IMG/VR virus record: IMGVR_UViG_3300005829_000010 | Location: 1 to 20,036 of that record | Reading direction: 5' to 3' (one strand) | Origin: a virus | DNA: 20,036 bases | Part shown: positions 2,642-20,036 of the stretch, piece after piece | How positions within the stretch are numbered: position 1 is the stretch's first letter | How the letters are laid out: each line of letters begins with the position of its first letter | Notes under the pieces: model-generated | Database searches by the model: none | Seen by the model: only the letters and a program-made list of their open reading frames with translations | What the model was told of the DNA's origin: nothing | Position numbers and translations under genes: made by a program

Positions 2642-4285
2642 CTACGGTTTGGTTCGCTGTGGTTTCGCAATCATCCAGAGATGGCTTAAAACAAACTCAC
2701 TCCCAGTATGCTCAATACGAGGACTAAAATAATGGGCATGGGTTTCATAGTTGACCAGTGATTCTTGGCTTAACCCATCAAAGGACCCATACAGTGTTCC
2801 ATTCCCATACAGTGTGCCATCCCCATAGAAATGGACCACAGAGGACTCATAATCGACAGGCAAGACCTCAAAGGTCTGTGGACTCATCAGGGCTTGTCGT
2901 AAACTAAACAAGGTGAGAGTTGGGTTCACCGCTGAAACATTCGTTTCTATGTGCGTTTCTTGGTGATACTTCTGGTGAGCAGGAAGACCAAAGGACTTAT
3001 AATACGGTTGGTAGGTCATGGAAATTGCTGTAGACGTAGACTCACCAACATGATCCACGAATACGGATGGGACCCGTAGTTGATACAGCATACTCAAGTT
3101 ATCGGGATTGCCTTCTCCCCCAATCACTTGGTTGTCTCCTTGTTGGTTTTCGACCCACGCACAGTTCAGCGTCTGCCCAATCATGGGTCCATACCAGACA
3201 GGCCCACGATCAGGGTGTTCTTGGAGTGATCGTGTATCAAGCCACCATTGAATTGACGTGTACTGGTTCGTTCCAATGGGGATAGCAAGCATCAACCGTT
3301 CATTGTGATAGACCATCCACGCTTTATCCAGCGCCGCACGGTAGGCACTTTCAAGCCCTGCGGTACTTACGGTGGATTGAAGTTTGTCCCCCACGAACCG
3401 TCCTGTAAGCGCATTCGTGGGAATCCAGTATACGTTATAGTCTGATGTGAGCCAAAAAATACCTACATTTGGAACCGCACAAACACTTCGAGGGCTGGCA
3501 GTGCCGACGGTCCCATCGAGGATCACGATCTTTGTGTCCAATCCTGTTGAAGGAGAAAGACTGGTCACGTCATCCCCAAAGTCTGTGCCTGTAATGAGAT
3601 AATAGGCACGTTCTTGAAAGGCCAGGGCACCAGGGTAGATGGTATCCTGCCCATAAATGGTATATGGGTAGATCGCCGTAAATAGCCCAGGCCGTTGTGG
3701 ACGGTACGTGGCCCAACTACTATTGTTGGACCAGATATTATCGACACGGGCATTCGTCCGTTCAATACCATTGCCCGTAATGGCAAGCAGTCGATCTAAA
3801 ATAGGAACCACATCAGTCTTGGGAATAATGGTATGCACGTTTGGGGTCAACGTGGTTCCATCAAACTTGGCGAGTGCATCTGTCCCATTGGTGATATACA
3901 CGCTGTCCGTGATCGACCAGGTTGAGAAGTAGGTTGTTAAATCAGGCGTTCGACTTGTCGTCAAGACAGTTTCAACACCACTATTACTAATTGTACTCAC
4001 GGCATTATGATATGCGGTAAGGCGATAACTAACCGCTCCGCTTCGTCCTTGATAGTACTTATGTCCACCAAGGATTGGATAGGTACGAGTGGGATTCCCA
4101 GCACCGAGACTATTGGCAAACAATCGCTGGCACCCACGGCGAATCCGCACTCCTCCATAGAACTCACAGTTTTGCATCAGCCGTGCTTCACCAGAAACAA
4201 GATTCTCTTCACTTGCACGGAGGTTTACGCCATAAATTGGGTCTTGAAAGGCCGCAGCACTTTCTGAGAATTGGTCTCGTAACAT
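2642..4285 (-). CDS. Tail nozzle / DNA-stabilisation-like protein
   Basis: A 547-residue beta-rich protein. The N-terminus carries the pattern GVNLRASEENLVSGEARLMQ followed by NCEFYGGVRIRRGCQRL, typical of podovirus tail-hub, nozzle or packaged-DNA stabilisation proteins. In those, an early G-x-N-L-R then E-A-x-x-x-x-N then R-x-R-G motif precedes a beta-propeller. The rest alternates short strands and loops with many aromatic residues (YYQGRSGAVSYRLTAYHNAV, ERAYYLITGTD, NVGIFWLTSDYNVYWIP), consistent with propeller blades. A Gly/Tyr duplication FYGDGTLYGNGTLYGSFDG lies at about 488-506. The gene starts immediately after the stop of the adaptor-like gene (TAA then ATG, no gap) with only a weak Shine-Dalgarno, so coupling is likely. 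Position after the adaptor and before the collar fits a protein at the end of a short tail. Family naming is by pattern only. Confidence 0.65.
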   Translation of the reverse strand: MLRDQFSESAAAFQDPIYGVNLRASEENLVSGEARLMQNCEFYGGVRIRRGCQRLFANSLGAGNPTRTYPILGGHKYYQGRSGAVSYRLTAYHNAVSTISNSGVETVLTTSRTPDLTTYFSTWSITDSVYITNGTDALAKFDGTTLTPNVHTIIPKTDVVPILDRLLAITGNGIERTNARVDNIWSNNSSWATYRPQRPGLFTAIYPYTIYGQDTIYPGALAFQERAYYLITGTDFGDDVTSLSPSTGLDTKIVILDGTVGTASPRSVCAVPNVGIFWLTSDYNVYWIPTNALTGRFVGDKLQSTVSTAGLESAYRAALDKAWMVYHNERLMLAIPIGTNQYTSIQWWLDTRSLQEHPDRGPVWYGPMIGQTLNCAWVENQQGDNQVIGGEGNPDNLSMLYQLRVPSVFVDHVGESTSTAISMTYQPYYKSFGLPAHQKYHQETHIETNVSAVNPTLTLFSLRQALMSPQTFEVLPVDYESSVVHFYGDGTLYGNGTLYGSFDGLSQESLVNYETHAHYFSPRIEHTGSEFVLSHLWMIAKPQRTKP

Positions 4286-5152
4286 TTAATCTCGATATCC
4301 TACTTGGACCACACGACTCGTTTGAGATCCTAGTGCATCAAGCATATAGTTATAGACTTGCAGTTCTTTTTGATAACGGTCTTCATCGAATCGCTGCATG
4401 GACTTCACCGTGATACCTTGTATCCATACCGAACGCCATTCTGTTAGCAACTGGGTAAATAACGTACTTGATTCATCCAGTGAACTCAGGTCAACCCAAT
4501 AGCGATTGATCAACCCATAGGTTGATTTATCAGGTACAGGATACAGCAGGAACTCCTGCCCTGAAAGTGACGCAAGTACTGGAGTACCAATGGTCGTTGG
4601 GGCATCCAACCGATCAAACTCTGTGGTTATGTCACTCGGCCAAAGTTGTGTATACTGGGTGACAATGAGGTACGTGGTCCCCACAGTGGGGGCACTTAAC
4701 CACTCAAGGTCAAGGGTGGCTGTTTTGGTGGCAGGTGTATAGGCAATAATCTCCCGATATTGCTCAATCCCAGGTTCACTGGTAAGCAGGACATACTTGC
4801 CGATAATACTCTCTTCCGTGACATCTAATGTTGCCGCAAAGATAATGGATGTGGCTGACCCACCTTGACACGTCCCTCGAAGGCTATCAGGTCCATCCAG
4901 TAACGTAATCGACTGTTGCTCATTATGGTCAGGAGGAATGGCATAGCGTTGTTGCCCGCGAGTGGTAACGGTCGTTGCAGTGGCCAGTAAGTTTGGATGG
5001 GTAGCTGCGACAAGCATCAAATCCGCTTTGACTTCCTGTAACTGATGATCCAAAGCTTCTTGGATTTGTGTACTTGAAGGGGTCGTGCGTCCTGCACGTT
5101 TGAGAGCTTGCGTGACAAGGCTTGTGGGGGTGGGTGAGACTGGCACAGCCAT
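4286..5152 (-). CDS. Head-tail adaptor-like (connector) protein
   Basis: A 288-residue protein. The N-terminal helices TSLVTQALKRAGRTTPSSTQ and EALDHQLQEVKADLMLVAAT match the common opening of podovirus adaptor proteins (ALKRAG followed by an AL...L...L helix). The C-terminal half contains LASLSGQEFLLYPVPDKSTY, then NRYWVDLSSLDESSTLFTQL, then a helical end with W-x-x-x-W and DRYQKELQVYNYMLDAL. This order (strand, YPxPD turn, RYW strand, helix with D-x-Y-x-x-E) is what I associate with gp4/gp11-type ring proteins that bind under the portal. A beta insertion (about 95-165) is Ser/Thr/Ile-rich. It is followed without a gap by the nozzle-like gene. I infer that it builds the ring joining portal to tail. 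The exact family (P22 gp4-like or T7 gp11-like) cannot be fixed without a profile search. Confidence 0.6.
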   Translation of the reverse strand: MAVPVSPTPTSLVTQALKRAGRTTPSSTQIQEALDHQLQEVKADLMLVAATHPNLLATATTVTTRGQQRYAIPPDHNEQQSITLLDGPDSLRGTCQGGSATSIIFAATLDVTEESIIGKYVLLTSEPGIEQYREIIAYTPATKTATLDLEWLSAPTVGTTYLIVTQYTQLWPSDITTEFDRLDAPTTIGTPVLASLSGQEFLLYPVPDKSTYGLINRYWVDLSSLDESSTLFTQLLTEWRSVWIQGITVKSMQRFDEDRYQKELQVYNYMLDALGSQTSRVVQVGYRD

Positions 5153-5162
5153 ACGGGGCTCC

Positions 5163-6386
5163 TTACACTCCTGGTGACCCTTGTTGGGTATCCCATGTTG
5201 AGGTTCGATTGGGTTGGCGTGACACCGCAGCAGGCTGAACAGACTGCCGTCTCCATCGGCCTCTATGAGAGGACCGGAGGTTGACTATGGTACCTAGTAC
5301 CGTATAACTTCCACTTTCAACAGAGAAATGTGTTGAACGGAGAAACACATCAGGAGAGACAATGGTATATTGCCCAGGCCCTGCGTCCACATAACTGATT
5401 CGCTGAAGTGTCGTAACAGGACTTGCGACGAGGTACACCCCTTTCTTTGCAATAAGATTATAGATGCTACGTCGAGGAACCGCCGCACTTCCTGAGAGTC
5501 CATAGGTGCCTGAGACAGCTGTTAATTGTCGTGCAACTTGTCTGAAAATAACATCTGTACCCGTGAGATAGTATGCTCCTGGAGCCGCGACTTCTTTGAA
5601 CCGAACTGCTGTTCCTGACTGCGTATACGAGCCACTGGTTGCTGTGAGTAATCGAGTAGGTCTAAGCGTACTATTGGTACCTGTGAGTACATAACTATCA
5701 GTATTGATGACCATGACATAATCCGACGATGTGCTTCGTCGAAGTGTCGTAATGGCCCCTGTAATACTATAGCTGGTACTGGCAGCAGGAAAATGACGGG
5801 ATTGTTCTAAGCGAGTTGCCGTGCCCCCTATAAATTCATATGTCCCTGCACTTGCAACAAGGTTTTTCCCTTTACGGAATATAACAGTTGTTCCTGTAAG
5901 TTGATAGTCACCTGAGTCACTGGGTCTCTCATACAGAAGTCCAACTGCCTGACCAGTTACACTGTAACTACCACCAACTGTGGAACTACTCAACCCCAGG
6001 GTGAATCGGTCCAGCGTAGCCGCTGTGCCGGTATAGGCATACGCTCCTGTTCCTGTAACAAGAGCAGTACTCAGTTGGACATTTGTGCCAATCAGCGCAT
6101 AGGACCCTGTGGCACTCGCAAACACCAAGCGATTCGTTTTTGAGAGGGTAACCGCCGATCCATTCAGGAGGTACCCAGCAGGTTCTGTGGCAATACGGCG
6201 AGTTTGGATAGCGGTCCCTGTGACCGTGTAGCTTCCAGAAACCGCTGTAACCCCTTTTCCAAGGATTGTCCCAGCTGTTGATCCAGTGAGTGTATAACTC
6301 CCTGCGGCAATAATGAGGGCAACCGCAGTCGCTGACGCTGCTCCAACAAGTGTATAAGCACCAGCATTACAAACAAGACTTGCCAT
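5163..6386 (-). CDS. Tandem-repeat beta protein, 17 copies of a G-S-Y-T-L-T-G-T unit
   Basis: A 407-residue protein built almost wholly of tandem units of about 18-25 residues, with core G-[ST]-Y-x-[LV]-[TI]-G-[TS]-x-[AV]-x-[LF]-R followed by a variable Arg/Leu/Ala spacer. I count 17 units between residues 9 and 373, for example GSYTLTGSTAGTI, GAYAYTGTAATLDR, GDYQLTGTTVIFRKG, GTYGLSGSAAVPRR and GSYTVLGTIVNLRSS. The last 34 residues are a different, basic tail (HRGRWRRQSVQPAAVSRQPN). The regular aromatic and glycine spacing suggests a beta-solenoid or a string of beta-hairpins. No catalytic motif is present. A second gene at 12311-12895 carries 7 units and the gene just upstream (6395-7063) ends in one unit. 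An AAAGGA precedes ATG 6386. Its place before the adaptor gene suggests a virion appendage, but the function is unknown. Confidence 0.75.
   Translation of the reverse strand: MASLVCNAGAYTLVGAASATAVALIIAAGSYTLTGSTAGTILGKGVTAVSGSYTVTGTAIQTRRIATEPAGYLLNGSAVTLSKTNRLVFASATGSYALIGTNVQLSTALVTGTGAYAYTGTAATLDRFTLGLSSSTVGGSYSVTGQAVGLLYERPSDSGDYQLTGTTVIFRKGKNLVASAGTYEFIGGTATRLEQSRHFPAASTSYSITGAITTLRRSTSSDYVMVINTDSYVLTGTNSTLRPTRLLTATSGSYTQSGTAVRFKEVAAPGAYYLTGTDVIFRQVARQLTAVSGTYGLSGSAAVPRRSIYNLIAKKGVYLVASPVTTLQRISYVDAGPGQYTIVSPDVFLRSTHFSVESGSYTVLGTIVNLRSSHRGRWRRQSVQPAAVSRQPNRTSTWDTQQGSPGV
5268..6362 (-). repeat. 17-unit protein-level tandem repeat array
   Basis: The units are 18-26 codons long and differ widely at the DNA level, so this is an old array held by selection on the protein rather than a recent DNA duplication. 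The conserved positions are Gly, an aromatic (almost always Tyr), Thr/Ser-Gly, and a Leu/Phe-Arg pair. Unit 12 is the shortest and units 6 and 10 the longest. The boundary with the basic tail is near 5268. Confidence 0.75.
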
Positions 6387-6394
6387 GTAATCCT

Positions 6395-7063
6395 TTATTT
6401 ACGGTAGCGAAGCCATGTCGTAGCACCGATTCGTAAAACCATAGCAATACCAGTGGAAACATATTCACCAGTGGCAGCAAGGATGGACTTGCTTGCGAGG
6501 TTGCCACCTTCCCAGGCGGATAATCCATTACCGCTAGTTGAGGTAGAGGAATGCCCGACGCCTGCACGCCCAGACGCAATCGGAGAGGTATCCGTCCCAG
6601 AGGCAAACGTGGAGCCATTTTTTTTCAGCACCCAGTCCGCATTGGCTCCGTTCGTCATAATGGACAGATAGAGCGTGTCGCCGGAGGTAAACGTCGTGCC
6701 AGCCCCAGACGATAAAGAGGTAAACGTGCCTGCCACCTTCCGCCCCAATTCATACCCTGAACCATTGCCAACCACACGATAATACGTCCTGGTCGCGCCA
6801 GTGGCCGCACGACAGGTCGGCCCAAATCCCGCACCCACGCCGTCAGACGACGTAGTTCCAAAGGTGACTTGACCGTACTGATCGTCGGGCCAAGAGACCG
6901 TGTTGTTGGTCTCAGACGAATCTCTAGTCACATCCGATGCAACTGCTCGGTTCGAGGCAATATCCAGTCCGTCTGGGCCTGATTCTCCCGTACACTCATC
7001 CCAATTCGTCCCAAGATCGGCGGCATCCGCACGGGTGAAATTATCGGTCGCTAAGATAGCCAT
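6395..7063 (-). CDS. LamG / concanavalin-like jelly-roll protein with one C-terminal repeat unit
   Basis: This 222-residue protein begins MAILATDNFTRADAADLGTN, the usual opening of phage- and bacteria-borne concanavalin-like domains (DxFxRADxxxLGxxW). It continues with strand-like segments (QYGQVTFG, RTYYRVVGNGSGYELGRKV, SGDTLYLSIM, WVLKKNGSTFASGTDTSPI, SGRAGVGHSS) that fit a jelly-roll binding domain of about 190 residues. Residues 194-212 are ILAATGEYVSTGIAMVLRI, one clear copy of the repeat of the next gene downstream. The region encoding the jelly roll is GC-rich (lines 6541 and 6781 count about 63 and 68 percent), while the repeat copy is not (line 6421, about 43 percent). No Shine-Dalgarno is visible before ATG 7063. 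A likely role is glycan binding on the virion surface. That role is inferred from fold type; the ligand is unknown. Confidence 0.65.
   Translation of the reverse strand: MAILATDNFTRADAADLGTNWDECTGESGPDGLDIASNRAVASDVTRDSSETNNTVSWPDDQYGQVTFGTTSSDGVGAGFGPTCRAATGATRTYYRVVGNGSGYELGRKVAGTFTSLSSGAGTTFTSGDTLYLSIMTNGANADWVLKKNGSTFASGTDTSPIASGRAGVGHSSTSTSGNGLSAWEGGNLASKSILAATGEYVSTGIAMVLRIGATTWLRYRK
6428..6484 (-). repeat. Single copy of the G-x-Y-x-x-T-G repeat at the end of the jelly-roll protein
   Basis: The segment ILAATGEYVSTGIAMVLRI matches the unit of the downstream 17-copy array (A-A-x-G-x-Y-x-x-T-G-x-x-x-x-L-R). It lies at the point where base composition changes from about 43 percent GC to over 55 percent, so it may mark a recombination joint. 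Confidence 0.65.
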
Positions 7064-7111
7064 GCTAGGTGTTCAGTTTCGTCAGATGATTGAATACCGT
7101 GACAACTTTCA

Positions 7112-8446
7112 CTATTTGCCTTGCACATACACCCGTTGGATGGGCTGTGGAACCGCACTAATCGTGATCCCAGTTGGTGCCGCTGGAGGCGTAATATCAT
7201 TTGTACCAGAGCTAAAGCCGATCTGGGCGCAGGAGACAGGGGTCCCAGCTCGTACATGCACATTATCCTCATACCGAAACGTCAGGGCTGTCGAGGCCAC
7301 ATAGCCTCCCCCTTGATTGGTATTGGCGTAGGCATTCCAATACATACCGTTATAGCCGTTTTTACTGTCCAGCGTAGTGCCATCAATCGTCACGTCAATG
7401 ATGGGCCGCTCGCTCGTCATATTCGGTCCCTGGAACCAGATCCGCATACGCTGATTAGAGAGGCCAGCGTTCTCCATCAGGCCCCGCACACATCCCCAGG
7501 TCCCCCAGGGCCAATCCGTCGGTTGGCTATAATTAGCTGGGCTATTCCAGATCATGATCGTTTGGTCTGAGGAGCAACTGGCTCTGCCCAGGGTCGCTAT
7601 AATGGACCCTGCCTTGCAGACGTGATCCTGAAAGCTCCCGAAAAATCCGGCAAAGGGGCGTCCATTTCGTGGGCCATCTTGATTGTAGAAAATAAAGAGC
7701 CCATCAAACCCACCGTTGGGCGTGTAGACCGTCGCCCATTCATTGTGCTTCCATGAAGCCGGGACCCCTGCCGTACCCCAGATCCCCGAGGAGTCTGAAT
7801 TCAGGGGGTAGGCGATGGCAGCCGTATAGCCAATGGTGCGAGTCGTACTAAACGATTTAAACCCTGTGATCCCATGCGTTGATCCAACCGGAATGCGGTT
7901 AACTAGATTGGCGTTCCCGTCGAATACGCCGGACCCTCCGCCTGCCGCATGAGAGGGCGCTGTTAAGGCAGCATTTTCAGCGGTGTAATCAGCCGTGGAG
8001 TCATAGATAGCCACTTTAGGCGTATAGGCATTCGCACTCCACCGATTCGTATCATCCCACGTCTTCATCCCTGTACACTGAGCAAACGCAGTACACGGCG
8101 TTCCGAACGTGGGGCTAGAGGGCTGGCCACTCACCCAGTCAATGCCCGCATCAGAGTTGCCATATTTCTGATTCCAATAACTATTGTGTCCACGGTCTCC
8201 ACTAGATCCGGTGTCGTCATACCAGGGGCCATAGTAAGGGGCGCCGTTCCCGACGCCTTGATTCAACCGCAAAGTAGGTGCCTCAAAGTCCTCACAGATA
8301 AGAAGCAGAGGGTCATTGAGACTTCCCCCCTTTACCTTGTCGCAGTAGCAGTCGGTGCCTGGTGTACATGCAGCCTCGCTCAGTCCAACCCACCAGAATA
8401 GACTGGTAGACATCAGGAGTAGACTAAGGTATACAAGTCGTTGCAT
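7112..8446 (-). CDS. Secreted-type Cys-containing protein with signal peptide, jelly-roll-like
   Basis: The open frame reaches 8524, but I start at ATG 8446. GGAGA at 8456-8460 precedes it, and the protein then opens with a textbook signal peptide (MQRLVYLSLLLMSTSLFWWV, then GLSEA before ACTPG, with cleavage probable near residue 25). The mature part has ten Cys, starting C-x5-C-x-C and then LLLICEDFEAP, an opening I associate with bacterial extracellular glycan-binding or lyase-like jelly-roll proteins. Other segments are GNAPYYGP-like aromatic loops, FNQDGPR-like loops (FIFYNQDGPRNGRP) and the late strand RPIIDVTIDGTTLD. The C-terminus ends DITPPAAPTGITIS, the linker that normally introduces an FnIII domain, but no FnIII follows in frame. 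High GC and an export signal are unusual for a virion gene and suggest recent acquisition from a bacterial genome. The enzymatic activity, if any, is unknown. Confidence 0.7.
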   Translation of the reverse strand: MQRLVYLSLLLMSTSLFWWVGLSEAACTPGTDCYCDKVKGGSLNDPLLLICEDFEAPTLRLNQGVGNGAPYYGPWYDDTGSSGDRGHNSYWNQKYGNSDAGIDWVSGQPSSPTFGTPCTAFAQCTGMKTWDDTNRWSANAYTPKVAIYDSTADYTAENAALTAPSHAAGGGSGVFDGNANLVNRIPVGSTHGITGFKSFSTTRTIGYTAAIAYPLNSDSSGIWGTAGVPASWKHNEWATVYTPNGGFDGLFIFYNQDGPRNGRPFAGFFGSFQDHVCKAGSIIATLGRASCSSDQTIMIWNSPANYSQPTDWPWGTWGCVRGLMENAGLSNQRMRIWFQGPNMTSERPIIDVTIDGTTLDSKNGYNGMYWNAYANTNQGGGYVASTALTFRYEDNVHVRAGTPVSCAQIGFSSGTNDITPPAAPTGITISAVPQPIQRVYVQGK

Positions 8447-8455
8447 TATCTGTTG

Positions 8456-8460
8456 TCTCC
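8456..8460 (-). promoter_or_regulatory. Shine-Dalgarno fixing the start at 8446
   Basis: GGAGA lies 9 nt before ATG 8446. There is no comparable site before the upstream in-frame ATG codons of this frame, and the start at 8446 places a signal peptide at the N-terminus. Confidence 0.6.
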
Positions 8461-8491
8461 TTTTGGACACCAATAAAACCATCGACACACT

Positions 8492-8542
8492 AGGCTCCGC
8501 CAACCAGTGACACTTAGACAACAACGAGGCCAGTCGGAGCCT
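8492..8542. repeat. 8-bp perfect inverted repeat at the end of the FnIII gene
   Basis: AGGCTCCG at 8492-8499 pairs with CGGAGCCT at 8535-8542 across 35 bases that hold the FnIII stop codon. There is no T-run next to either arm, so it is not a plain terminator. It lies at one edge of the GC-rich insert and could be a chance match or a relic of the joint. Confidence 0.3.
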
Positions 8543-8804
8543 GGGGAGGGACCAGATCTACCACCTTATGCACAGTCGCTGACAGTACGGATTCGTTGTT
8601 CGCGGTATCGACCGCCGTAAGGCCATAGAAATAGTCACCATCTGTCGTGATGGTATCAACATAGGTTGCTAGAGTCGCTGGGACACTTGCATAGAGATTA
8701 CTCGCGGTACGAGTCGGTGCAACACCAACAGCCCGATAGATATTGTACTTCGCCACATCAGGTTCGAGATTCTTGTTCCAGGTCAGAGTATTGGTTGTTG
8801 CCAT
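8514..8804 (-). CDS. Single fibronectin type III domain protein
   Basis: A 96-residue protein that is essentially one FnIII domain. It opens TNTLTWNKNLEPDVAKYNIY, continues with ATYVDTITTDGDYFYGLTAV and DTANNESVLSATVHK, and ends with a domain linker VPPQAPTGLVVV. The W-x-x-N-x-E-P-D-x-x-x-Y and Y-x-Y-x-x-x-A-x-D-x-x-x-N-E-S patterns are characteristic. The frame extends upstream to 8906, but AAAGGAG at 8810-8816 sits 5 nt from ATG 8804, so I use that start. The end looks like a linker leading into a further domain, and the next gene downstream also ends with such a linker, so a longer multi-domain fibre may have been split. FnIII domains in phages usually decorate virions and may bind carbohydrate on the host surface. 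The gene overlaps the small gene upstream by 22 nt. Confidence 0.8.
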   Translation of the reverse strand: MATTNTLTWNKNLEPDVAKYNIYRAVGVAPTRTASNLYASVPATLATYVDTITTDGDYFYGLTAVDTANNESVLSATVHKVVDLVPPQAPTGLVVV

Positions 8805-8965
8805 GAAGACTCCTTTGTGCAGACTTCTGCACGGGTGGGAATAAAGGTTAACAGTTGACCTTGCTTTGTATAGACAGTACCTTGTCCAGGCAATGGTTGC
8901 TGGCAAGTCTGACAGATCCCTTCGCGGACGGTATGTCGTATAGGATTAAATACTGTCGTAAACAT
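8783..8965 (-). CDS. Small Cys-motif (zinc-ribbon-like) protein, 60 residues
   Basis: A 60-residue protein beginning MFTTVFNPIRHTVREGICQT. It has TAAGGAG five bases before ATG 8965, a strong initiation site, and fills the space between the two FnIII genes. It contains ICQTCQQPLP (a CxxC knuckle), a short strand-rich middle (GTVYTKQGQLLTFIP) and a third Cys in EVCTKESS. This could be half of a zinc site or a dimerising zinc ribbon. The 3-prime end overlaps the FnIII gene start by 22 nt. A second small Cys-motif gene (11309-11512) lies on the other side of the tailspike gene. I do not recognise the family, and the function is unknown. Confidence 0.55.
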   Translation of the reverse strand: MFTTVFNPIRHTVREGICQTCQQPLPGQGTVYTKQGQLLTFIPTRAEVCTKESSWQQPIL

Positions 8966-8974
8966 CCTTGCTCC

Positions 8975-9559
8975 TTATCGCCGGCGTTGCAAGGTGTTGG
9001 CCGTGCGAATAACCCGGCGAGAAACCACGCTACTGAGTGCAGACTCATTGGCACTGGTATCATAGGCAGAGACTGCAAAGTACCAGAGCCCATCGTTAAC
9101 CAACTGGGGTAAGACAACAATCGTTGTCACAAGACCGACATCTGCTGAGAAGGAAAAACTCGTCGATGACCGTCCACCATAGAGACGATACCCTGCCAAG
9201 TCAGGCTCAGTATTCGCATTCCAGGTCACACGGATGCTGTTTAAGGGTTCTTGAGGGGTGAAATTTATCTCACCAGTTGCTGTGGCACAGCCAAACCATT
9301 GTAGGTTATTGGCATCCAAAAGAGTCGCCCATCGCTGACCGATGACACTTGTGCCACTTGTTAGTGTCACAATGCCTGTATTACTCATTGAGGGAATCCA
9401 GACCGTTGCATCCACTGCACTTTGAAATACAGGGGGTGTCGGAGTTACGATTGCACCACCAGAAGTCCAGGTCAACATACCTCGTGTAGACACGGTTGGC
9501 ACCCAGACAGTTGCATCAGGAGATTGCAGGCTCCAAGCAGTGATTTGTACTAAGGCCAT
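8975..9559 (-). CDS. FnIII-domain virion protein with an N-terminal 2-unit repeat
   Basis: A 194-residue protein. Residues about 15-70 hold two related units: DATVWVPTVSTRGMLTWTSG and, about 35 residues later, DATVWIPSMSNTGIVTLTSG. This looks like a small beta domain duplicated in tandem. Residues about 108-185 are a fibronectin type III domain (IRVTWNANTEPDLAGYRLYG, WYFAVSAYDTSANESALSSV), closely resembling the FnIII gene two positions downstream. The C-terminus is basic (RTANTLQRRR). ATG 9559 follows the tailspike stop by 8 nt, without a clear Shine-Dalgarno. It sits directly after the tailspike and ahead of more appendage genes. It is probably a fibre or spike accessory protein; this role comes from domain content and position. 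Confidence 0.75.
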   Translation of the reverse strand: MALVQITAWSLQSPDATVWVPTVSTRGMLTWTSGGAIVTPTPPVFQSAVDATVWIPSMSNTGIVTLTSGTSVIGQRWATLLDANNLQWFGCATATGEINFTPQEPLNSIRVTWNANTEPDLAGYRLYGGRSSTSFSFSADVGLVTTIVVLPQLVNDGLWYFAVSAYDTSANESALSSVVSRRVIRTANTLQRRR

Positions 9560-9567
9560 CGGTTTAG

Positions 9568-11319
9568 TTAACTCGTAGGGGCTCGAAATTTACGATAGAA
9601 TACGGTAATACGAATGACCCCTGCACCAGGAGTACCCGTCGTGGTGATCCGCACTTTGGCATTTGCTGTTTGACGAGGCCCAGCGGCACCCGTTTGATCG
9701 ACATGCACCGTGCCTACACTCGTCGTACCCGCAGTCATTGTGGAGTTCGCCGCAGCAAACCGTGCTGGCGTGGTCGGATCACCGACAGTCCAATCTGTGG
9801 CAGTAGTAATCGTCGTGGTCACACGCGCCACGACCGCCTCGATCACTGAGTCCGCTGGGAGTAGATTTGCTGATGTGTTGGTTGTCGTCCCTGACGTGGA
9901 CAACGTGAGCAGTTCGCTCGCTTCAGCACGCTCCCAGAATGCACCGTTAGTCGTGGATTGGAATAAGGAATTCTGCATGTTTATCGTGCCAACACCCTTG
10001 AAGGTCCCTGACGGATCACCAATCATGACACCATCTTTGAATTGCGTCTGAATGGTATCCGTTCCGGCATTCTTTGTGACCACTCTGAGCGTTCCATCCT
10101 CTACCCCTGCTGTAGTAGTGGCTTGAATCGCACGCAGGAACACATAGGTTTTTTCTGCTGAAGCAGAGTCGTAACCACCCCAGCTAAAGTCTCCAAGCTG
10201 ATCGCCTGCCGAATTTGTGGAACGCATGAGCGTATTCACAGGGGCTTGTGCTTCCAGCATCAAGCGACACTTCCCGTTACTCTTTTGGAAGTTCAGCGTT
10301 GAACCAAGTTCAATAATGGGGTCAGGTGTACCGTTTGAGTTGCTGTAGGTGATAATATGATTGTCCTTGGCTGGTACGGCTCCTGACGCGAACCCTTGTG
10401 AAATCAGTCCGCCCGCGTTGGCCTGGAGATAGACGATGACGTTTTCACGCACATAACGTGTGCCTGATCCTGCGTGAAAAATGACGCCTGTTGCAGTTCC
10501 TGATGGGTGGCGAAAAATTGTGACATCACCAAATACGTTATTATCAGCTTTGAACATATCTAAGGCGGTATTGTTTCGATGTAACAAACGAATCCGGCCA
10601 AAGTGACATTCTGAGACATCGCCACCCCCAGCAGTATCAGGACCATCCATACGCATACACCCACCAGCAGCTGCGTCTAGCTGGATGATGTTGATGGCCT
10701 CGAACCAACAGGATTGTGTCGATGGTGGGTCAAGCACGACCGTTTCTTCGGTTTGCATATCCATCGCATAGCCGGTCGTCTCAGCCAGTACCATGTTAAA
10801 CAACCCGCCACGAACACTCCGTATTTTAAATGCTGTCCCAGCCAGCTTATTCCCATCCAAGAATATTCCAACAATTCCACCACCAGTCACGTTATGGTCT
10901 GCTCCGATGGCTGGTCCAAGATCATACAGTGTTGCGCCTGCTGATCCTGTCCATTTCCAAATCGTTGCGGCACTCCCAGAATCGTCATCTCCATCACGAT
11001 TACTTCCAGCCCCTGCCCCATCTAATAACACGTTATTATAGATATTGACGAGTGGAACTGATAAATCATACCGTCCCGCCTTGTGTTTCAAACGCCCCCC
11101 AAGCACGGTTCCACCAACATAGTTAATGGCAGTCTGCAAGGTTGTGCTGTTTGTTGCACTCGATCCACCATTAGGCGTAAAGTCTCCAAAGTCATCGACC
11201 CAGTATTCTCGCGCAAACCGAGACTCTAATGCTGTAGGCGCCGTTGAACCGATGGCAGTAACAAGTTTATTCGTTAACGTTTGGATACTAGTTGTATCAA
11301 CAAGTTCTCTAGTTGCCAC
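9568..11319 (-). CDS. Tailspike / fibre with pectate-lyase-type beta-helix
   Basis: A 583-residue protein. After a short N-terminus, VDDFGDFTPNGGSSATNSTT and LQTAINYVGG at about 42-70, then GGRLKHKAGRYDLSVPL, form the standard entry to a right-handed parallel beta-helix (pectate-lyase-like fold). Such folds in phage tailspikes often degrade or bind surface polysaccharide. The helix probably runs to about residue 330. The last 120 residues (LLTLSTSGTTTNTSANLLPA, RVTTTITTATDWTVGDPTTP, VGTVHVDQTGA, GVIRITVFYRKF) match a C-terminal domain I know from many environmental phage fibres, perhaps for trimerisation or receptor binding. The start is GTG 11319, with AGGAG at 11329-11333 and no other Met until about residue 175. 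The virion anchor before the helix is short (about 40 residues). Active-site residues cannot be assigned by eye. Confidence 0.82.
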   Translation of the reverse strand: MATRELVDTTSIQTLTNKLVTAIGSTAPTALESRFAREYWVDDFGDFTPNGGSSATNSTTLQTAINYVGGTVLGGRLKHKAGRYDLSVPLVNIYNNVLLDGAGAGSNRDGDDDSGSAATIWKWTGSAGATLYDLGPAIGADHNVTGGGIVGIFLDGNKLAGTAFKIRSVRGGLFNMVLAETTGYAMDMQTEETVVLDPPSTQSCWFEAINIIQLDAAAGGCMRMDGPDTAGGGDVSECHFGRIRLLHRNNTALDMFKADNNVFGDVTIFRHPSGTATGVIFHAGSGTRYVRENVIVYLQANAGGLISQGFASGAVPAKDNHIITYSNSNGTPDPIIELGSTLNFQKSNGKCRLMLEAQAPVNTLMRSTNSAGDQLGDFSWGGYDSASAEKTYVFLRAIQATTTAGVEDGTLRVVTKNAGTDTIQTQFKDGVMIGDPSGTFKGVGTINMQNSLFQSTTNGAFWERAEASELLTLSTSGTTTNTSANLLPADSVIEAVVARVTTTITTATDWTVGDPTTPARFAAANSTMTAGTTSVGTVHVDQTGAAGPRQTANAKVRITTTGTPGAGVIRITVFYRKFRAPTS

Positions 11320-11512
11320 GTAGCATTGCTCCTAAACTACCAGGTTCAGCAAACAACCGGCGATAGATATGATTACATTCCTTACAGATCGTGATCCGTA
11401 AGTCAGCCCGTTCCCAAAATTGGACAATGTTCCGTTTGTCCTGGCAGCACTCAGGAAGATCTGCCAGGGTTTTGGGTGACTGATTGGGTTGATGTGTAAG
11501 AATCGGTTTCAT
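11309..11512 (-). CDS. Small CC...CxxC protein, 67 residues
   Basis: A 67-residue protein placed three bases after the stop of the gene upstream, overlapping the tailspike start by 11 nt. The central part holds LPECCQDKRN and, about 18 residues later, ITICKECNHIYRRLF. A CC pair and a CxxCxH cluster could together bind one zinc ion. The only ribosome-site candidate, TAAGG, is almost adjacent to ATG 11512 and therefore poor, so coupling to the upstream gene would be needed. Gene packing and the metal-site pattern support a real gene. Possible roles are a small folding helper or regulator near the tailspike; nothing in the sequence decides this. Confidence 0.5.
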   Translation of the reverse strand: MKPILTHQPNQSPKTLADLPECCQDKRNIVQFWERADLRITICKECNHIYRRLFAEPGSLGAMLRGN

Positions 11513-11515
11513 GCC

Positions 11516-11941
11516 TTAGGCGAGAGTAAAGATGGAACTACCAAAGTCTACGGTAAACGTTTCACCATTTCCAAGCACAAGACCTGACCCATAATCCCAC
11601 CAGGCAATCAGGGGATCAGCAGGAGACGTCTGGGTGTCATTGTAGAGGACTACATATCGGAAGGTATTCCAGTCAGCGGCACCAGCCGTCCAGACCACAT
11701 CCACACCAGTCATCGACGCTGTACCCGCCGTTTCCGTATAGCCATTCTGAGTATCTGTTCCACCTGCGGTATATCCTGTTCCACCAGCAAACTCTGTCAA
11801 ATCTGCTTTGACCGCCATTGTGGCAGCGTTCGGTGTGGTATTACTGAGGTAGACCTTGCAGACATGACCTGCTGCGGACAAGTCATGCTTGGCAAGACCA
11901 AGTTGTTCAACGAAATCCTGGAACTTGTTATAAGCGGCCAC
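11516..11941 (-). CDS. Small virion protein of a widespread environmental-phage family
   Basis: A 141-residue protein starting at GTG 11941, with AAAGGAG seven bases upstream. The opening AAYNKFQDFVEQLGLAKHDL, then VCKVYLSNTTPN, ADLTEFAGGTGYTAGG and the end FRYVVLYNDTQTSPADPLIA, DYGSGLVLGNGETFTVDF, fit a family I recall as common among structural-region genes of environmental phages (NKF-DFVEQL ... GYTAGG ... FRYAVLYNDT ... WWDYGS). Those proteins have no established function, to my knowledge. The composition (Gly/Thr/aromatic strands) suggests a beta-sandwich decoration or fibre subunit. It sits in a run of similar small beta proteins between capsid and tail genes. Confidence 0.75.
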   Translation of the reverse strand: MAAYNKFQDFVEQLGLAKHDLSAAGHVCKVYLSNTTPNAATMAVKADLTEFAGGTGYTAGGTDTQNGYTETAGTASMTGVDVVWTAGAADWNTFRYVVLYNDTQTSPADPLIAWWDYGSGLVLGNGETFTVDFGSSIFTLA

Positions 11942-11967
11942 GCTAGTACTCCTTTGTTAGAATAAAG

Positions 11968-12309
11968 TTATCGACACTTCCATAGTTGTACATCAGCCGT
12001 TGCAGTGCTTGCCCCACCACGCGTCGTCGTACACGCCAATGTCAACCCATCTCCCCGTGTCCGCCAGCCTGAGCCCCCAAAGTTAATGGTCGCACCCCCT
12101 GACGCGGGGAGTGGAATGACGACATCAGGGACGGTCGTACCTACGGTTACTGATGCCGCAAGTTTGTAAAAAACCTGGAGGTAACTAATGGCTGCGGCAT
12201 TGTTCAAGATATGGTATGCCCCAATGTCCATTGGTTGGGCGGAGGCTTGTACTTTTGTACCGGTCACTGATGCACTAAACGCACTGTCATAACATCCTGC
12301 TCCTGCCAT
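11968..12309 (-). CDS. Small beta-sandwich virion protein, 113 residues
   Basis: A 113-residue protein with MAGAGCYDSAFSASVTGTKV, IGAYHILNNAAAISYLQVFY, VTVGTTVPDVVIPLPASGGA and GGSGWRTRGDGLTLACTTTR. The pattern (strand, NN-A-A-A-x-x-YLQ-x-F, GTTxPxxxIxLPxxG, a late GL-x-x-ACTTTR strand) is one I recall from many metagenomic phage structural regions. It looks like a single beta-sandwich. The preceding gene ends GGGGGATAA directly before ATG 12309, so its 3-prime end supplies the ribosome site. Function is unknown; a role in capsid decoration or a fibre is suggested by neighbours only. Confidence 0.7.
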   Translation of the reverse strand: MAGAGCYDSAFSASVTGTKVQASAQPMDIGAYHILNNAAAISYLQVFYKLAASVTVGTTVPDVVIPLPASGGATINFGGSGWRTRGDGLTLACTTTRGGASTATADVQLWKCR

Positions 12310-12310
12310 C

Positions 12311-12895
12311 TTATCCCCCTAATCCCATCATGGCTAATAAGTGTGTGGTCACACTGCCTCCTGAAAAGGTTAACTGCGTTGTCTCACTCTCGACAATCAG
12401 ATATTGTCCATTTGTCAGTGTGATCAACCGTGCACTGTTAAGGGTGACTGTTGATCCTGAGATTGTATAACTTCCTGCTGCAATCCCTACAACTCGTGCC
12501 GCACGCAGTGTTTCACTGGTACCCGTTAGTGTATAGGTTCCTCCTGCTGAGAGACACCGACTGCCATAGAAGACCCCAACGGAGGTTCCTGTAAGGGTAT
12601 AACTTGTGGTCTCAGCATTACTTCGAAACCCACCAAAGAGACCAGTACTGGTACCCGTTAGACTGTAACTTCCACTATCAGCAGGAAGGGTTTTATTTGT
12701 TGAGAAAACGGTAAGACTGGCAGCCACGCCTGTGTAGGTATAGGTACCAGTAACACACGTTAGACTAAAGGCATTAATTGATGCCTGTCCAACGAGCCCA
12801 TAACTTCCACTCTCTACCGAAAGACTAAGCTGCTGAGCGGTCAGTCCATGGGCGACCAGCGCATGACTGGGAATTGACCGCCCAATCTGTGCCAT
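12311..12895 (-). CDS. Tandem-repeat beta protein, 7 copies of the G-S-Y-T-L-T-G-T unit
   Basis: A 194-residue protein with a 29-residue helical lead (MAQIGRSIPSHALVAHGLTA), then seven units of about 20-25 residues, such as GTYTYTGVAASLTVF, GSYSLTGTSTGLFGG, TSYTLTGTSVGVFYG, GTYTLTGTSETLRAA and GSYTISGSTVTLNSA. A C-terminal cap (LLAMMGLGG) follows. The unit is the same as in the 407-residue protein encoded about 6 kb downstream. The last unit of that protein and the first unit here even share SVESGSY. The two are therefore paralogues or products of repeat exchange with different copy numbers. Length variation by repeat number suggests a structural rod or solenoid. ATG 12895 follows the previous stop by 3 nt without a clear ribosome site. 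Function unknown. Confidence 0.75.
   Translation of the reverse strand: MAQIGRSIPSHALVAHGLTAQQLSLSVESGSYGLVGQASINAFSLTCVTGTYTYTGVAASLTVFSTNKTLPADSGSYSLTGTSTGLFGGFRSNAETTSYTLTGTSVGVFYGSRCLSAGGTYTLTGTSETLRAARVVGIAAGSYTISGSTVTLNSARLITLTNGQYLIVESETTQLTFSGGSVTTHLLAMMGLGG
12359..12808 (-). repeat. 7-unit protein-level tandem repeat array
   Basis: Seven units of the same type as the array at 5268-6362. Units 3-5 are the closest to one another (SYSLTGTS, SYTLTGTS, TYTLTGTS), so part of this array may have been duplicated more recently than the larger array. Confidence 0.75.
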
Positions 12896-12898
12896 AGT

Positions 12899-13360
12899 TT
12901 ACGCTCTCGACCATTTGACCCACGCAAGGACATTGACGTTGGCAGTGACATTAATACGTAAGAGAAAACTATCTGCTGTTCCCGCAGGAGAGACAGGTTC
13001 TAATCCTAAGGGATTCTGGAGAACAAAGATCCCCATATACTGGGGTACATACACCCCCTGATGGATTGTATATGTCGTTCCTTCAGCAGAGAAATTCTGC
13101 CCTAGCGTAATCCCATGAGCAATGGTAGCTCCTTTGATCTGGGTGGTCACAGGCGTCCCAACTGATGTGCCTGCCGAGGTCTCGTCAGAAGTCCCCCACT
13201 CCAATGTTGCAGGGACCGCTGAACTCGTCACCCCATCCATAGAGACCCCAATCTCATGGATTTTGAGGTTGAACCCTGTGGGGCTAATCAGCTTGAGAAG
13301 GGTCTTCGCCCCAGCGGTGGCAGCAAAAGCCGTATTACGAGAGACATAAACAGCATCCAT
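12899..13360 (-). CDS. Small structural-region protein of environmental-phage type, 153 residues
   Basis: A 153-residue protein. AAKT-like opening (AATAGAKTLLKLISPTGFNL), then IHEIGVSMDGVTSSAVPATL, TSVGTPVTTQIKG, NFSAEGTTYTIHQGVYVPQY and a close with LLRINVTANVNVLAWVKWSR. I recall this order (K-T-x-x-x-I-x-P-T-G-x-x-x-K-I then G-V-T-S-x-A-V-P) from many small genes beside the capsid in environmental phages. It looks all-beta. AAGGAA precedes ATG 13360 with good spacing. A virion decoration or appendage role is inferred from context and composition. Confidence 0.7.
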   Translation of the reverse strand: MDAVYVSRNTAFAATAGAKTLLKLISPTGFNLKIHEIGVSMDGVTSSAVPATLEWGTSDETSAGTSVGTPVTTQIKGATIAHGITLGQNFSAEGTTYTIHQGVYVPQYMGIFVLQNPLGLEPVSPAGTADSFLLRINVTANVNVLAWVKWSRA

Positions 13361-13369
13361 AGTCGTTCC

Positions 13370-14056
13370 TTAATAGCTGGCAGCTCGATGAATCGCTTGA
13401 CCAATGACAGAGACTTTTCCTGGTGTGTCATCAAACATGACACTTGTTGAAATTGCTACCCATGGGCGATACGTGGTTCCTGTCGTGGAATCATCTGCGG
13501 GGAGATCCCCACTTGATGCACTACACCCAAATCGGATCGAGCAGTTATGTCCATTGACACCTGATGCTGCCGTTGGTGTACCCCCACAGCCAACCTCAAT
13601 AACAAGCCGATCTCCCTTGATACACGTGTATCCTGCCAAGGCCGTAGAAGGAAAGTTTCGATTGGTGAGTGACGTGGCAACCTCATTCGTGGTATCACGC
13701 GTGACATCAAGCAAGGTTGCTCGTACAGTCGTGCCATCATTACTACAGACAAGAAGTTTGAGGGTGAGAAACTGATTGCACCCCGTATTTACTTCTGTCA
13801 TCTGAAACTGAGCGGTGACATTTCCCCCCAGCGTTTGAGCAATCAACGGACCACTCACATACTGCCGATGTAACGCATCACCTGATACCAAGTCATCAGC
13901 GGCATCAGGAGTATAGGCTGTTGTTGTCAGGGTACTTCCATCAGGGGTCGTCAATAAGGACCGAGTGACCGTATTGATATGTTCCCATGCGGCTGCCGCA
14001 GCGGGAGGCGTAACTGGTGCCGCTAAGGTCTCAGGAAAATAAAAGGTCGTCGCCAC
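13370..14056 (-). CDS. Small structural-region protein of environmental-phage type, 228 residues
   Basis: A 228-residue protein starting at GTG 14056, six bases after TAAGG. It begins ATTFYFPETLAAPVTPPAAA, a pattern (MATTFYFP... W-E) I recall as the start of a recurring structural-region protein. Further segments are LHRQYVSGPLIAQTLGGNVT (Q-Y-V-S-x-P-x-x-A-Q-x-x-x-G), SLTNRNFPSTAL, CIKGDRLVIEVGCG and TYRPWVAISTSVMFDD. All point to a beta-sandwich. It contains six Cys (CNQF, LVCS, YTCI, VGCG, HNCS, FGCS), more than its neighbours. No enzymatic motif is seen. It probably forms part of the virion surface; this is from context. Confidence 0.7.
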   Translation of the reverse strand: MATTFYFPETLAAPVTPPAAAAAWEHINTVTRSLLTTPDGSTLTTTAYTPDAADDLVSGDALHRQYVSGPLIAQTLGGNVTAQFQMTEVNTGCNQFLTLKLLVCSNDGTTVRATLLDVTRDTTNEVATSLTNRNFPSTALAGYTCIKGDRLVIEVGCGGTPTAASGVNGHNCSIRFGCSASSGDLPADDSTTGTTYRPWVAISTSVMFDDTPGKVSVIGQAIHRAASY

Positions 14057-16131: not shown

Positions 16132-17142
16132 TTATAGAGAGGCAGCAGTTTGTAACTCGACCAAGAAGTTCTGGTTGAGCACCTTCCTCGTATCATACTG
16201 CTTCCAGCCGACTGTCATCTTCATATTGAGAGGATCGGCAGTACCCGCTGAGCCGAGACCCTTGCGGATAATTCCACCATTCCCACCAGCAAGAGAAACT
16301 CCAGCCACAGCTTGCTGACCAACAATGAAGATACTGTAGATATCCGCAAAGGATGCAGTATTCTTCACATCAGTAGCCGCAATGGTCACACCAGTTGCAC
16401 CAGCGAGTTTGTACCCGTTCGGTGAAGCCATGAACCGAATGCCATTCTTGTCTGCCCCAAATTCACCGGCGATGACTCCACCCTTGCCAGCGTACTCACT
16501 GACCAGGAGAAAATCTGCCGTGTGTCTCAGGTCAAAGGCTACGTCCTCATGACACATCGCCCAGTACCCAGGCATGACAGGACCAGTGCCCACATTCTGG
16601 GAGGCCATAATCATCGGGGTAAAGGTCTTGGCTTTGTTATTGCGGATCAAACGATACGCACGATCCAGATCGTTCTTGTCTACGATCTCAGACACGGTCA
16701 CCGTGCTGGTTCCATTCGCATAGACAATCTGCGTGGCATCCGCATAAACATCACGATACAATTGATCAAAGGTCTCACCCCGTTGCTGACCGAGCAGCTC
16801 GACATTCTCTGTCGTCTGAGGATCGGGCTGGGTGGACTCAATCATATCACTGTCTTCAATGAAATCCCCATAGGGGGCGATCAACGCCGAGACATCCGTC
16901 TTGGACTTGGTTCTGCCAGCAGGATTCTCACCCTCTGTTAAGGGATTGGTCGCTAGAGTCAGGGCTTCATAGCGTCTCCAGATCATGGTCTTCCCTGACT
17001 TACGGGCAAGACTCTTCTGGACAACCGGCACTTGGTGGATGAGTTCATACTGCCCACGAATGAGCAAGAGGGTATCGAAAAAGGACTGCGTAGCATCACT
17101 TGATGTACCGTCAGTAAACGCTGTAGTTTTATGTATAGCCAT
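16132..17142 (-). CDS. Major capsid protein, N4-gp56-like (HK97 fold)
   Basis: A 336-residue protein with the hallmarks of N4-gp56-type capsid proteins. SGKTMIWRRYEALTLATNPL runs into LTEG at 68-71, with a following Pro. IAPYGDFIEDSDMIES lies at about 88-103, and RGETFDQLYRDVYADATQIV with YANG follows. An LDRAYRLIRNNKAK helix comes next, then YWAMCHEDVAFDLRH at 193-207 (the usual place of IHPxVxxDLR) and GEFGADKNGIRFMAS at 226-240 (GExG...GxRF). This order is diagnostic to my eye and the length is usual. GAGGAG precedes ATG 17142. It follows the scaffold candidate and would form the icosahedral shell. The N-terminus shows no long delta domain, so scaffolding is probably supplied by the separate upstream gene. 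Confidence 0.9.
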   Translation of the reverse strand: MAIHKTTAFTDGTSSDATQSFFDTLLLIRGQYELIHQVPVVQKSLARKSGKTMIWRRYEALTLATNPLTEGENPAGRTKSKTDVSALIAPYGDFIEDSDMIESTQPDPQTTENVELLGQQRGETFDQLYRDVYADATQIVYANGTSTVTVSEIVDKNDLDRAYRLIRNNKAKTFTPMIMASQNVGTGPVMPGYWAMCHEDVAFDLRHTADFLLVSEYAGKGGVIAGEFGADKNGIRFMASPNGYKLAGATGVTIAATDVKNTASFADIYSIFIVGQQAVAGVSLAGGNGGIIRKGLGSAGTADPLNMKMTVGWKQYDTRKVLNQNFLVELQTAASL

Positions 17143-18859: not shown

Positions 18860-19047
18860 TAGACGTGATCCTCTGTGTGTGTAACTTGAGGATACCCGTG
18901 ATTCAATGCCCATCGGTACCCTTGGATGAGTGCTTGCAGTCTCCATAAGGCTACGGTCATCCCTAGAGTGCCTGGAAGAGCCTCAGCATCTTTTACTTGC
19001 TGTTCCATCTGTTCAAACCCTGTCACGGTAAGGATAGGTAGATCCAC
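18859..19047 (-). CDS. Small helical protein after the portal, 62 residues
   Basis: A 62-residue protein starting at GTG 19047, overlapping the portal stop codon as TAGTG, with GGAGG six bases upstream inside the portal gene. The sequence is mostly helical (FEQMEQQVKDAEALPGTLGM, ALWRLQALIQGYRWALNHGY) and ends in a charged tail (THTEDHV). Coupled translation with the portal suggests a stoichiometric partner or an assembly factor. No motif identifies a family, and the function is unknown. Confidence 0.6.
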   Translation of the reverse strand: MDLPILTVTGFEQMEQQVKDAEALPGTLGMTVALWRLQALIQGYRWALNHGYPQVTHTEDHV

Positions 19048-20036
19048 TAAAGACCTCCAGGACCAGGGCCACCGGAGTCACTCTCATGACCCCCTTTCGC
19101 TTGATTAATGGCACTCGCAGCTCCCCCACTCGCCCCTTGCTGCATAGGCATGGTTGGTGGTTGTGCAGCGTCTCGCTTCATGCCTTCGGCTAATCGAGAG
19201 GGCATCTCTGACATATCCACTAACGCTTGCAGAGTATTGGGACCAGGCACACGGCCTGTCTGCATCATCAAAGTAGTCAACTGCACGGCTCGTTCAAACA
19301 ACGCTTCACGGGCTGTCGAATCAATAGGCGCAAGTTTTAAGGAAAGGTCAAACGACAAATTCGAGACATGAACCAGCATTTCATAGATCGCTTGGTCATC
19401 CATCGGGTTGCCTGTCACGGGATCAGCAAAGACTGAGGTCTGTCCAGGTGAGGTCCCTGCAAGTTCCGCAAGACCAATAATACGTTTGAGTTTTGCTGGA
19501 GGATAATACTGTTGGATACGACTGAGGAGGAGTTCTGCCACGTCCAGCATGGCTTCGTCAAAGTTCATCAATCGTGGCTTGAGGATCGTCTGTCCACCTT
19601 CTTGACGAGCATTAATCGCTCGACCTGAGACAGTCTTCTGGGTCGTACTGCCTACCATCTCTGCGTTTACCCCAGAGATACGAAGAATCTGCTGAGCGGA
19701 ACTCTGGGCAATCGCAAAATGTCCTTGGCTCAGTTCCACCGGCTTGATTTGTTGAGGAGCGACAGCGGTAAATTCTACGACCACGCCAGGAGCGGACCCC
19801 ATCGTTTTCAATTGGTCAGTGTTTGCGCCTGTGCCCTTCTTGTTCAACCAGCCACTATGCGAGGAGCTATTCAGATGTCCTAACAGATTGCTATACCGCT
19901 TGTTTAGTTCATCTTGCGGGTCCCACAGGTTACGGACGATCCCCATAATACTTTCAGGATCATCTTGGAACATACGGGAAACGTATGGCACATAGGGGGA
20001 TTTTCTGTCTCGGGTGTAGGGTGTTTTGCCTTCAGC
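19047..20036 (-). CDS. Portal protein, P22-like, C-terminal part (runs off window)
   Basis: The frame stays open to the window edge (329 residues plus stop), with about 15 codons upstream of the first in-window GTG (19991), so the N-terminus lies outside. SIMGIVRNLWDPQDELNKRY at about residues 29-48 has the D-P-Q-x-E-x-N-K-R signature of P22-type portals (kDPQreiNkRrS). NAEMVGSTTQKTVSGRAINA then RQEGG, FDEAMLDVAELLLSRIQQYY and DLSLKLAPIDSTAREALFER continue the usual wing and stem order of these proteins. The C-terminus is Gly/Ser/Pro-rich (ESDSGGPGPGGL). The portal is the DNA channel and packaging motor dock at one capsid vertex. The gene heads the visible operon; the terminase would be expected further to the right. 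Confidence 0.82.
   Translation of the reverse strand, partial: AEGKTPYTRDRKSPYVPYVSRMFQDDPESIMGIVRNLWDPQDELNKRYSNLLGHLNSSSHSGWLNKKGTGANTDQLKTMGSAPGVVVEFTAVAPQQIKPVELSQGHFAIAQSSAQQILRISGVNAEMVGSTTQKTVSGRAINARQEGGQTILKPRLMNFDEAMLDVAELLLSRIQQYYPPAKLKRIIGLAELAGTSPGQTSVFADPVTGNPMDDQAIYEMLVHVSNLSFDLSLKLAPIDSTAREALFERAVQLTTLMMQTGRVPGPNTLQALVDMSEMPSRLAEGMKRDAAQPPTMPMQQGASGGAASAINQAKGGHESDSGGPGPGGL

Follow-up and report, generated by a model that had tools for sequence, protein, structure and literature searches.

The stretch of DNA considered here, IMG/VR virus record IMGVR_UViG_3300005829_000010 (the window, analyzed over its whole linear length of 20,036 bases), encodes two proteins composed largely of tandem copies of one 22-residue unit, array A (5163-6386) and array C (12311-12895), as well as a partner gene (11516-11941) related to phrog_644, a family of unknown function. 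The weight of the finding lies mainly in the reciprocal linkage of arrays to partner and in the breadth of the family among uncultured viruses. We put the chances at about even that array and partner belong to an undescribed mobile virion module, made up of a constant phrog_644-like part, a solenoid stalk of variable length, and glycan-binding heads plugged into it. Such a module would be widespread among uncultured tailed phages and nearly missing from isolates, and the length of its stalk would evolve by gain and loss of units.

An earlier inspection of the window by eye (the first-pass annotation) had reported one unit used in two tandem arrays, and the two arrays are real. A hidden Markov model (HMM) of 22 positions was built from 412 distinct units of other viruses, with a check confirming that no window sequence was among them, thus avoiding circularity. 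It scored array A at 83.0 bits and array C at 73.3 bits, as against maxima of 16.5 and 15.8 bits, respectively, in 1,000 shuffles of each protein. Compared with one another, the two arrays are also alike (35% identity by tblastn, E=2.4e-13). The reported counts of 17 units in A (by splitting at the motif) and 7 in C stand by eye, but the HMM calls only 15 and 6; the TG core is lost in two units near the C-terminus of A (about 5316-5444), and the last unit of C is degenerate. The leader of array C, MAQIGRSIP, resembles by eye those of arrays in other loci (cited here by L numbers), MARFGRSFP in L027 and L069 and MARHGRGFP in L079.

The unit is undescribed in the libraries searched (Pfam, PHROG, NCBIfam, and PDB), as the first reading had supposed. 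Neither array had a match above cut-off in Pfam, PHROGs, or NCBIfam; sequence searches of the PDB with the array, the 2642-4285 protein, the capsid protein, and the partner produced nothing usable; and no description of the unit turned up in the literature, searched by string and by topic. Weak matches to CBM_X2, EutA, DUF1010, and DUF4369 lay below cut-off and were rejected. So was Big_4 (PF07532), for which the whole-protein sum on L015 reaches 1.8e-7 but no single stretch passes, the best covering only model positions 42-57 of 59; neither window array has a Big_4 hit.

The partner gene covers positions 11-136 of the 174 in the phrog_644 model (E=3.7e-15), and its homologue in L009 matches the same family (1.5e-11). 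Homologues identified by iterative profile occur in 98 loci of the array set, which makes this the most widely kept neighbor, and 94 of 104 copies are within 3 kb of an array, all on the array strand. In the converse test, which starts from the partner alone, 47 of 80 loci, and 21 of the 26 with complete flanks, had an array no more than 6 kb away and without exception on the partner's strand, bearing in mind that the query alignment was drawn from array loci, that many flanks are short, and that the loci are not fully independent. In two of the five remaining full-flank loci (L188 and L210), diverged arrays are visible by eye. The linkage is reciprocal. In Pseudanabaena phage Pam1 (ON014753), the homologue is gp9 (E=4e-22), annotated as hypothetical and situated between tail genes, and in EBPR siphovirus 2, the partner adjoins a tail-like gene. 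A cluster of opposite-strand genes in 28 loci resembles an antisense reading of the partner gene and was disregarded.

Exact-peptide searches with the window arrays failed to find relatives, because the units have diverged; what worked were DNA patterns for two consecutive units and an alignment search. Scanning IMG/VR with the patterns yielded 22 and 32 stretches, and the alignment search matched 390, of which 254 were confirmed. The same alignment, run with slightly different automatic patterns on 84,980 bacterial and archaeal genomes, gave one confirmed locus, in Mesorhizobium sp. WSM3626; a match is present in 2 of 147 Mesorhizobium genomes. Among GenBank phages there is one carrier, a Manatee Spring podovirus (four records), and a search of plasmids for the unit found none. 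The carriers are diverse, with capsids of at least four families, phrog_1357 (window), phrog_283 accompanied by a tape measure protein (L079), phrog_617 (L108), and phrog_334 (L054), while L088 has a T4-like B-family DNA polymerase (phrog_262). Differences of this kind argue that the module has moved between phage lineages. The position of the module varies as well, from between capsid and tail genes (window) to between portal and capsid genes (L079). Array genes sit among the portal, capsid, and tail genes of the carriers, which supports a structural-gene setting.

The recognizable genes of the window all lie on the minus strand, and both arrays fall within a stretch of unknown genes between the capsid and tail genes:

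19047-20036, minus strand: portal protein fragment, cut at the record end (phrog_156, E=6.4e-36)
16132-17142, minus strand: major capsid protein (phrog_1357, E=4.9e-49)
13370-14056, minus strand: stand-alone domain gene, 228 aa, with a counterpart in the N-terminal domain of the L117 array protein
12899-13360, minus strand: 153-aa gene immediately upstream of array C, with relatives in array loci by iterative profile
12311-12895, minus strand: array C, 194 aa; leader, then units at about 12419-12811 plus one degenerate unit
11968-12309, minus strand: small gene of 113 aa separating array C from the partner, without relatives in the searches made
11516-11941, minus strand: partner gene, 141 aa, phrog_644
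6395-7063, minus strand: 222-aa protein immediately upstream of array A, jelly-roll-like by eye
5163-6386, minus strand: array A, 407 aa; units at about 5265-6365, then a basic C-terminal tail
4286-5152, minus strand: adaptor-like gene after array A, judged by position, gene order, and eye
1671-2633: tail-collar-like protein (PHROG scan)

The 12899-13360 gene has relatives in 13 loci (the window included), all upstream of arrays on the same strand and, in 9 of the 13, within 150 bp of the array.

What is attached to the arrays bears on what they may do. The 108 distinct array open reading frames hold 2 to 29 units, and one further locus holds 37. Many array proteins have long N-terminal domains, and frequently the array makes up a whole small protein whose N-terminal part measures 24-50 aa. 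Laminin_G_3 (PF13385; cut-off 27.6 bits) lies N-terminal to the array in L032 (39.1 bits, E=1e-9) and is inserted between units in L076 (76.4 bits, E=3.3e-21), L060, which shares this LamG-type domain by phmmer, has it C-terminal to the array, and L055 has by eye a pectate-lyase-like head. The fusion to a binding domain claimed by the first-pass annotation is thus found, as lectin-like fusions, in the relatives but not in the window. There, a lectin-like domain is encoded by a stand-alone gene: over 211 aa, the 13370-14056 protein is 45% identical to the N-terminal domain with which the L117 array protein begins (E=2e-56). The same domain is fused in one locus and stand-alone in another in further cases (L010/L041, 1e-72; L102/L116; L100/L046). 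Fusion to the array in one virus and adjacency to it in another give good grounds for thinking that the two act jointly. This pairing, the partner gene, and the wide spread of the family all go beyond what had been noticed initially.

Two further features recur at or near the ends of arrays. A run of acidic residues with a short hydrophobic tail after it (such as DEDEDEIALLLELIS) is found at 19 of 135 distinct array C-termini, as compared with 4 of 1,167 other genes from these loci (e.g., L010 2448-3941, L037 12599-13453, L045 193-1707, L055 1254-2891, L080 5506-7074, and L170 10104-11348); the tail is absent from window arrays A and C. Also, a protein of about 110-130 residues, by eye like a baseplate upper protein or immunoglobulin (Ig)-like, often comes right after the array (e.g., L079 9139-9525, L210 9473-9802, and L017 3929-4306).

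The unit itself suggests a fold. Its consensus over the 412 units has G at positions 2 (96%) and 8 (100%), Y/F at 4 (98%), L/V/I at 6, A at 11 and 21, and L at 13 and 19, and the modal spacing between units is 22 residues (776 of approximately 1,600 spacings). Hydrophobic residues account for 93-100% at positions 4, 6, 11, 13, 19, and 21, where charged or large polar ones do not exceed 1%, and charge is concentrated at positions 14-18. An alternation of this kind is the pattern expected of short strands in the coil of a solenoid, and the unit statistics display both marks of a beta-solenoid, coils of fixed length and alternating, charge-free inward residues. AlphaFold2 (AF2), given a gap-free alignment of 39 rows for eight successive 22-residue units from L079, returned five models, the best with a predicted local distance difference test score (pLDDT) of 88.0, a predicted template modeling score (pTM) of 0.80, and all residues at 70 or above. 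The suggestion of a rod or solenoid that came with the first description is therefore supported, and the arrays likely fold as beta-solenoids.

As to how arrays change, exactly one 66-bp unit separates L076 from L077, which are 99.99% identical over their first 8.7 kb; the junction falls in sequence common to two neighboring units. Between L022 and L028 the difference is 11 units, bounded on both sides by identical copies of one unit, and L022 also has a duplicated block of three units. Of about 100 arrays, 8 contain an identical internal repeat of at least 50 nt. In one virus group (L008, L009, L016-L020, and L023-L026), many contigs start or stop inside the array, which fits the disruption of short-read assembly by identical units; their unit counts are then lower bounds.

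Exchange between arrays is another matter. It had been proposed from the string SVESGSY, which the two window arrays share with 18 of 21 nucleotides identical. However, SGSY is the family consensus, the units of A and C are some 50-75% alike in DNA, with distances between the arrays about the same as those within them, and no long DNA repeat linking A and C was found in the window. In loci with multiple arrays, the longest DNA common to separate arrays is about 25 nt (L086 and L128, like the window, carry two or three separate arrays in one virus). Exchange between A and C is accordingly not indicated, and it was rejected. Considering the unit differences between near-identical relatives together with the lack of shared DNA between arrays, arrays evidently grow and shrink occasionally, as the first-pass annotation had it, without the visible donation of units that it added. 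Its single copy of the unit, fused to the end of the 6395-7063 protein (about 6428-6484), did not survive either. The text TGEYVSTGIAMVLRIG is there, but its position-matrix score of 3.9 bits, which 132 of 3,000 shuffles and 32 of 1,427 non-array genes also attain, is not significant, and the unit HMM calls no domain in the terminal segment.

With moderate confidence, we favor the explanation that the arrays are stalks of an appendage on the virion surface, a solenoid rod with glycan-directed heads and a phrog_644-like component. According to this model, each 22-residue unit would be one coil of a beta-solenoid, tandem units would stack into a rod, and the number of units would set its length. 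Domains resembling those that bind or cleave sugars would be carried at the N-terminus of the rod, inside it, or at its C-terminus, or would be supplied by neighboring genes. The phrog_644-like protein would be the constant component, perhaps a base joining rod or heads to the particle. Units would be gained and lost by recombination or slippage within one array, and the module as a whole would be transferred between unrelated phage backbones.

Several observations weigh against the stalk model. The other four AF2 models of the L079 units have pLDDT values of 67-83, leaving just one of five above 85, and window array C reaches a pLDDT of 68.5 (pTM 0.67). AF2 is known to produce confident false solenoids, with buried charges, for perfect repeats (PMC11795689), and a fold search of the PDB (Foldseek) found no significant match, the best E being 0.31, though the matches were mostly beta-solenoids. 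Unlike the artefacts, the natural repeats have diverged and their buried-type positions are free of charge, and for this reason a solenoid remains likely. The window array proteins have no fused lectin domain, nor did the window proteins tested match Laminin_G_3. Most other close pairs of arrays keep their number of units, and the differences in copy number come from short-read contigs, where assembly can collapse repeats. Finally, the placement of arrays in particles is deduced here from their genes.

The arrays might instead coat the particle as head decoration or head-fiber proteins; they would then adjust its stability or its low-affinity attachment to surfaces and would not be host-binding stalks. 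Both window arrays follow the capsid gene, the L079 module is flanked by portal and capsid genes, and the carriers, with podo-, sipho-, and T4-type backbones, have no single tail type in common. However, heads like LamG and the pectate-lyase-like domain seen by eye in L055 are more typical of host-binding parts, and the partner keeps company with tail genes in Pam1 and with a tail-like gene in EBPR siphovirus 2. We regard this alternative as unlikely. Less probable still are shaft repeats of ordinary trimeric tail fibers or tailspikes, with the attachment and tip encoded in neighboring genes. Tail genes are nearby, and the proteins at 1671-2633 and 8975-9559 match tail fiber or minor tail families, but an array with its short leader often forms a complete small protein, and no fiber or tailspike family was matched in the searches made. 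That the arrays are non-virion proteins which the infected cell produces or releases, for example as sticky surface or matrix proteins, would agree with the purely genetic case for their placement and with the acidic-hydrophobic tails of some of them, but it is very improbable, given their tight same-strand linkage to structural genes and that no start resembling a signal peptide was noticed by eye.

Hundreds of uncultured viruses, then, carry a repeat protein and a partner gene left as unknown in databases, and their reciprocal linkage provides a testable role for both. If the model of an adjustable stalk with exchangeable heads is true, it would describe a general phage strategy for reaching surface targets and switching between them, one overlooked by isolate-based phage biology, and many unknown virion genes could be annotated at once.

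A few other genes of the window deserve mention. The 6395-7063 protein had no hit in Pfam or PHROG searches, and the 4286-5152 gene, also without a PHROG hit, has a single relative, in L081. The adjacent genes at 8514-8906 and 8975-9559 contain by eye fibronectin-III-like segments (NKNLEPDVAKYNIYRA, NANTEPDLAGYRLYGG), and the second has a weak match to a minor tail protein family. After the tail-collar gene, 1252-1674 encodes a 140-aa protein that looks by eye like an acetyltransferase; an annotated acetyltransferase is also found among the tail genes of Pam1 (L141 7889-8308) and MW202473 (L143), but the window protein does not match that of Pam1 directly.

Comparison may be made with several known systems. 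Ig-like (Big-type) accessory domains are small tandem beta modules on the virion proteins of tailed phages. In this, and in moving between unrelated phages, they resemble the arrays, but they are of about 80-100 residues rather than 22, and Ig models leave the array unit uncovered. The extender of an RTX adhesin (PDB 6xi3) has a GSYSLTG string in each repeat, and the array profile (A4) matches it with a summed E of 6.9e-8; its repeat, however, is about 100 residues long, no stretch is significant alone (independent E-values of 0.2-1.1), and homology was rejected. Beta-solenoid adhesins and phage tailspikes (SRRP, 5nxk; CBA120 TSP2, 5w6p) share the predicted fold class and a plausible adhesive role, but neither a sequence relation nor a significant fold match to the arrays was found. 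Cyanophage Pam1, whose particle structure has reportedly been published, shares the partner homologue gp9 but differs in that no array was detected adjoining it. The gene after gp9, gp10 (L141 7161-7892), opens with two SPA-L-GG units of array-like spacing; at 0.2 bits by the HMM, it was rejected as an array and is possibly a second type of repeat in the same place.

One precedent for such a system is gp34-36 of Alishewanella phage LSH1, a virion module of three proteins that forms an optional structural cluster in IMG/VR phages (PMC13243795). The LSH1 module contains a beta-helix adhesin/lyase domain, poorly modeled beta-helical spacers, and a small Ig-like protein, along with a protein like the GP4 fibril (8JOU), which joins an adhesin to the nozzle collar (PMC13243795). 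The likeness to the arrays is one of kind, and among PDB sequences the array (A4) and partner (A6) profiles did not hit any chain of 8JOU. At the sequence level the finding is solid; as a kind of system, what it points to would be a variant of the phage adhesion stalk.

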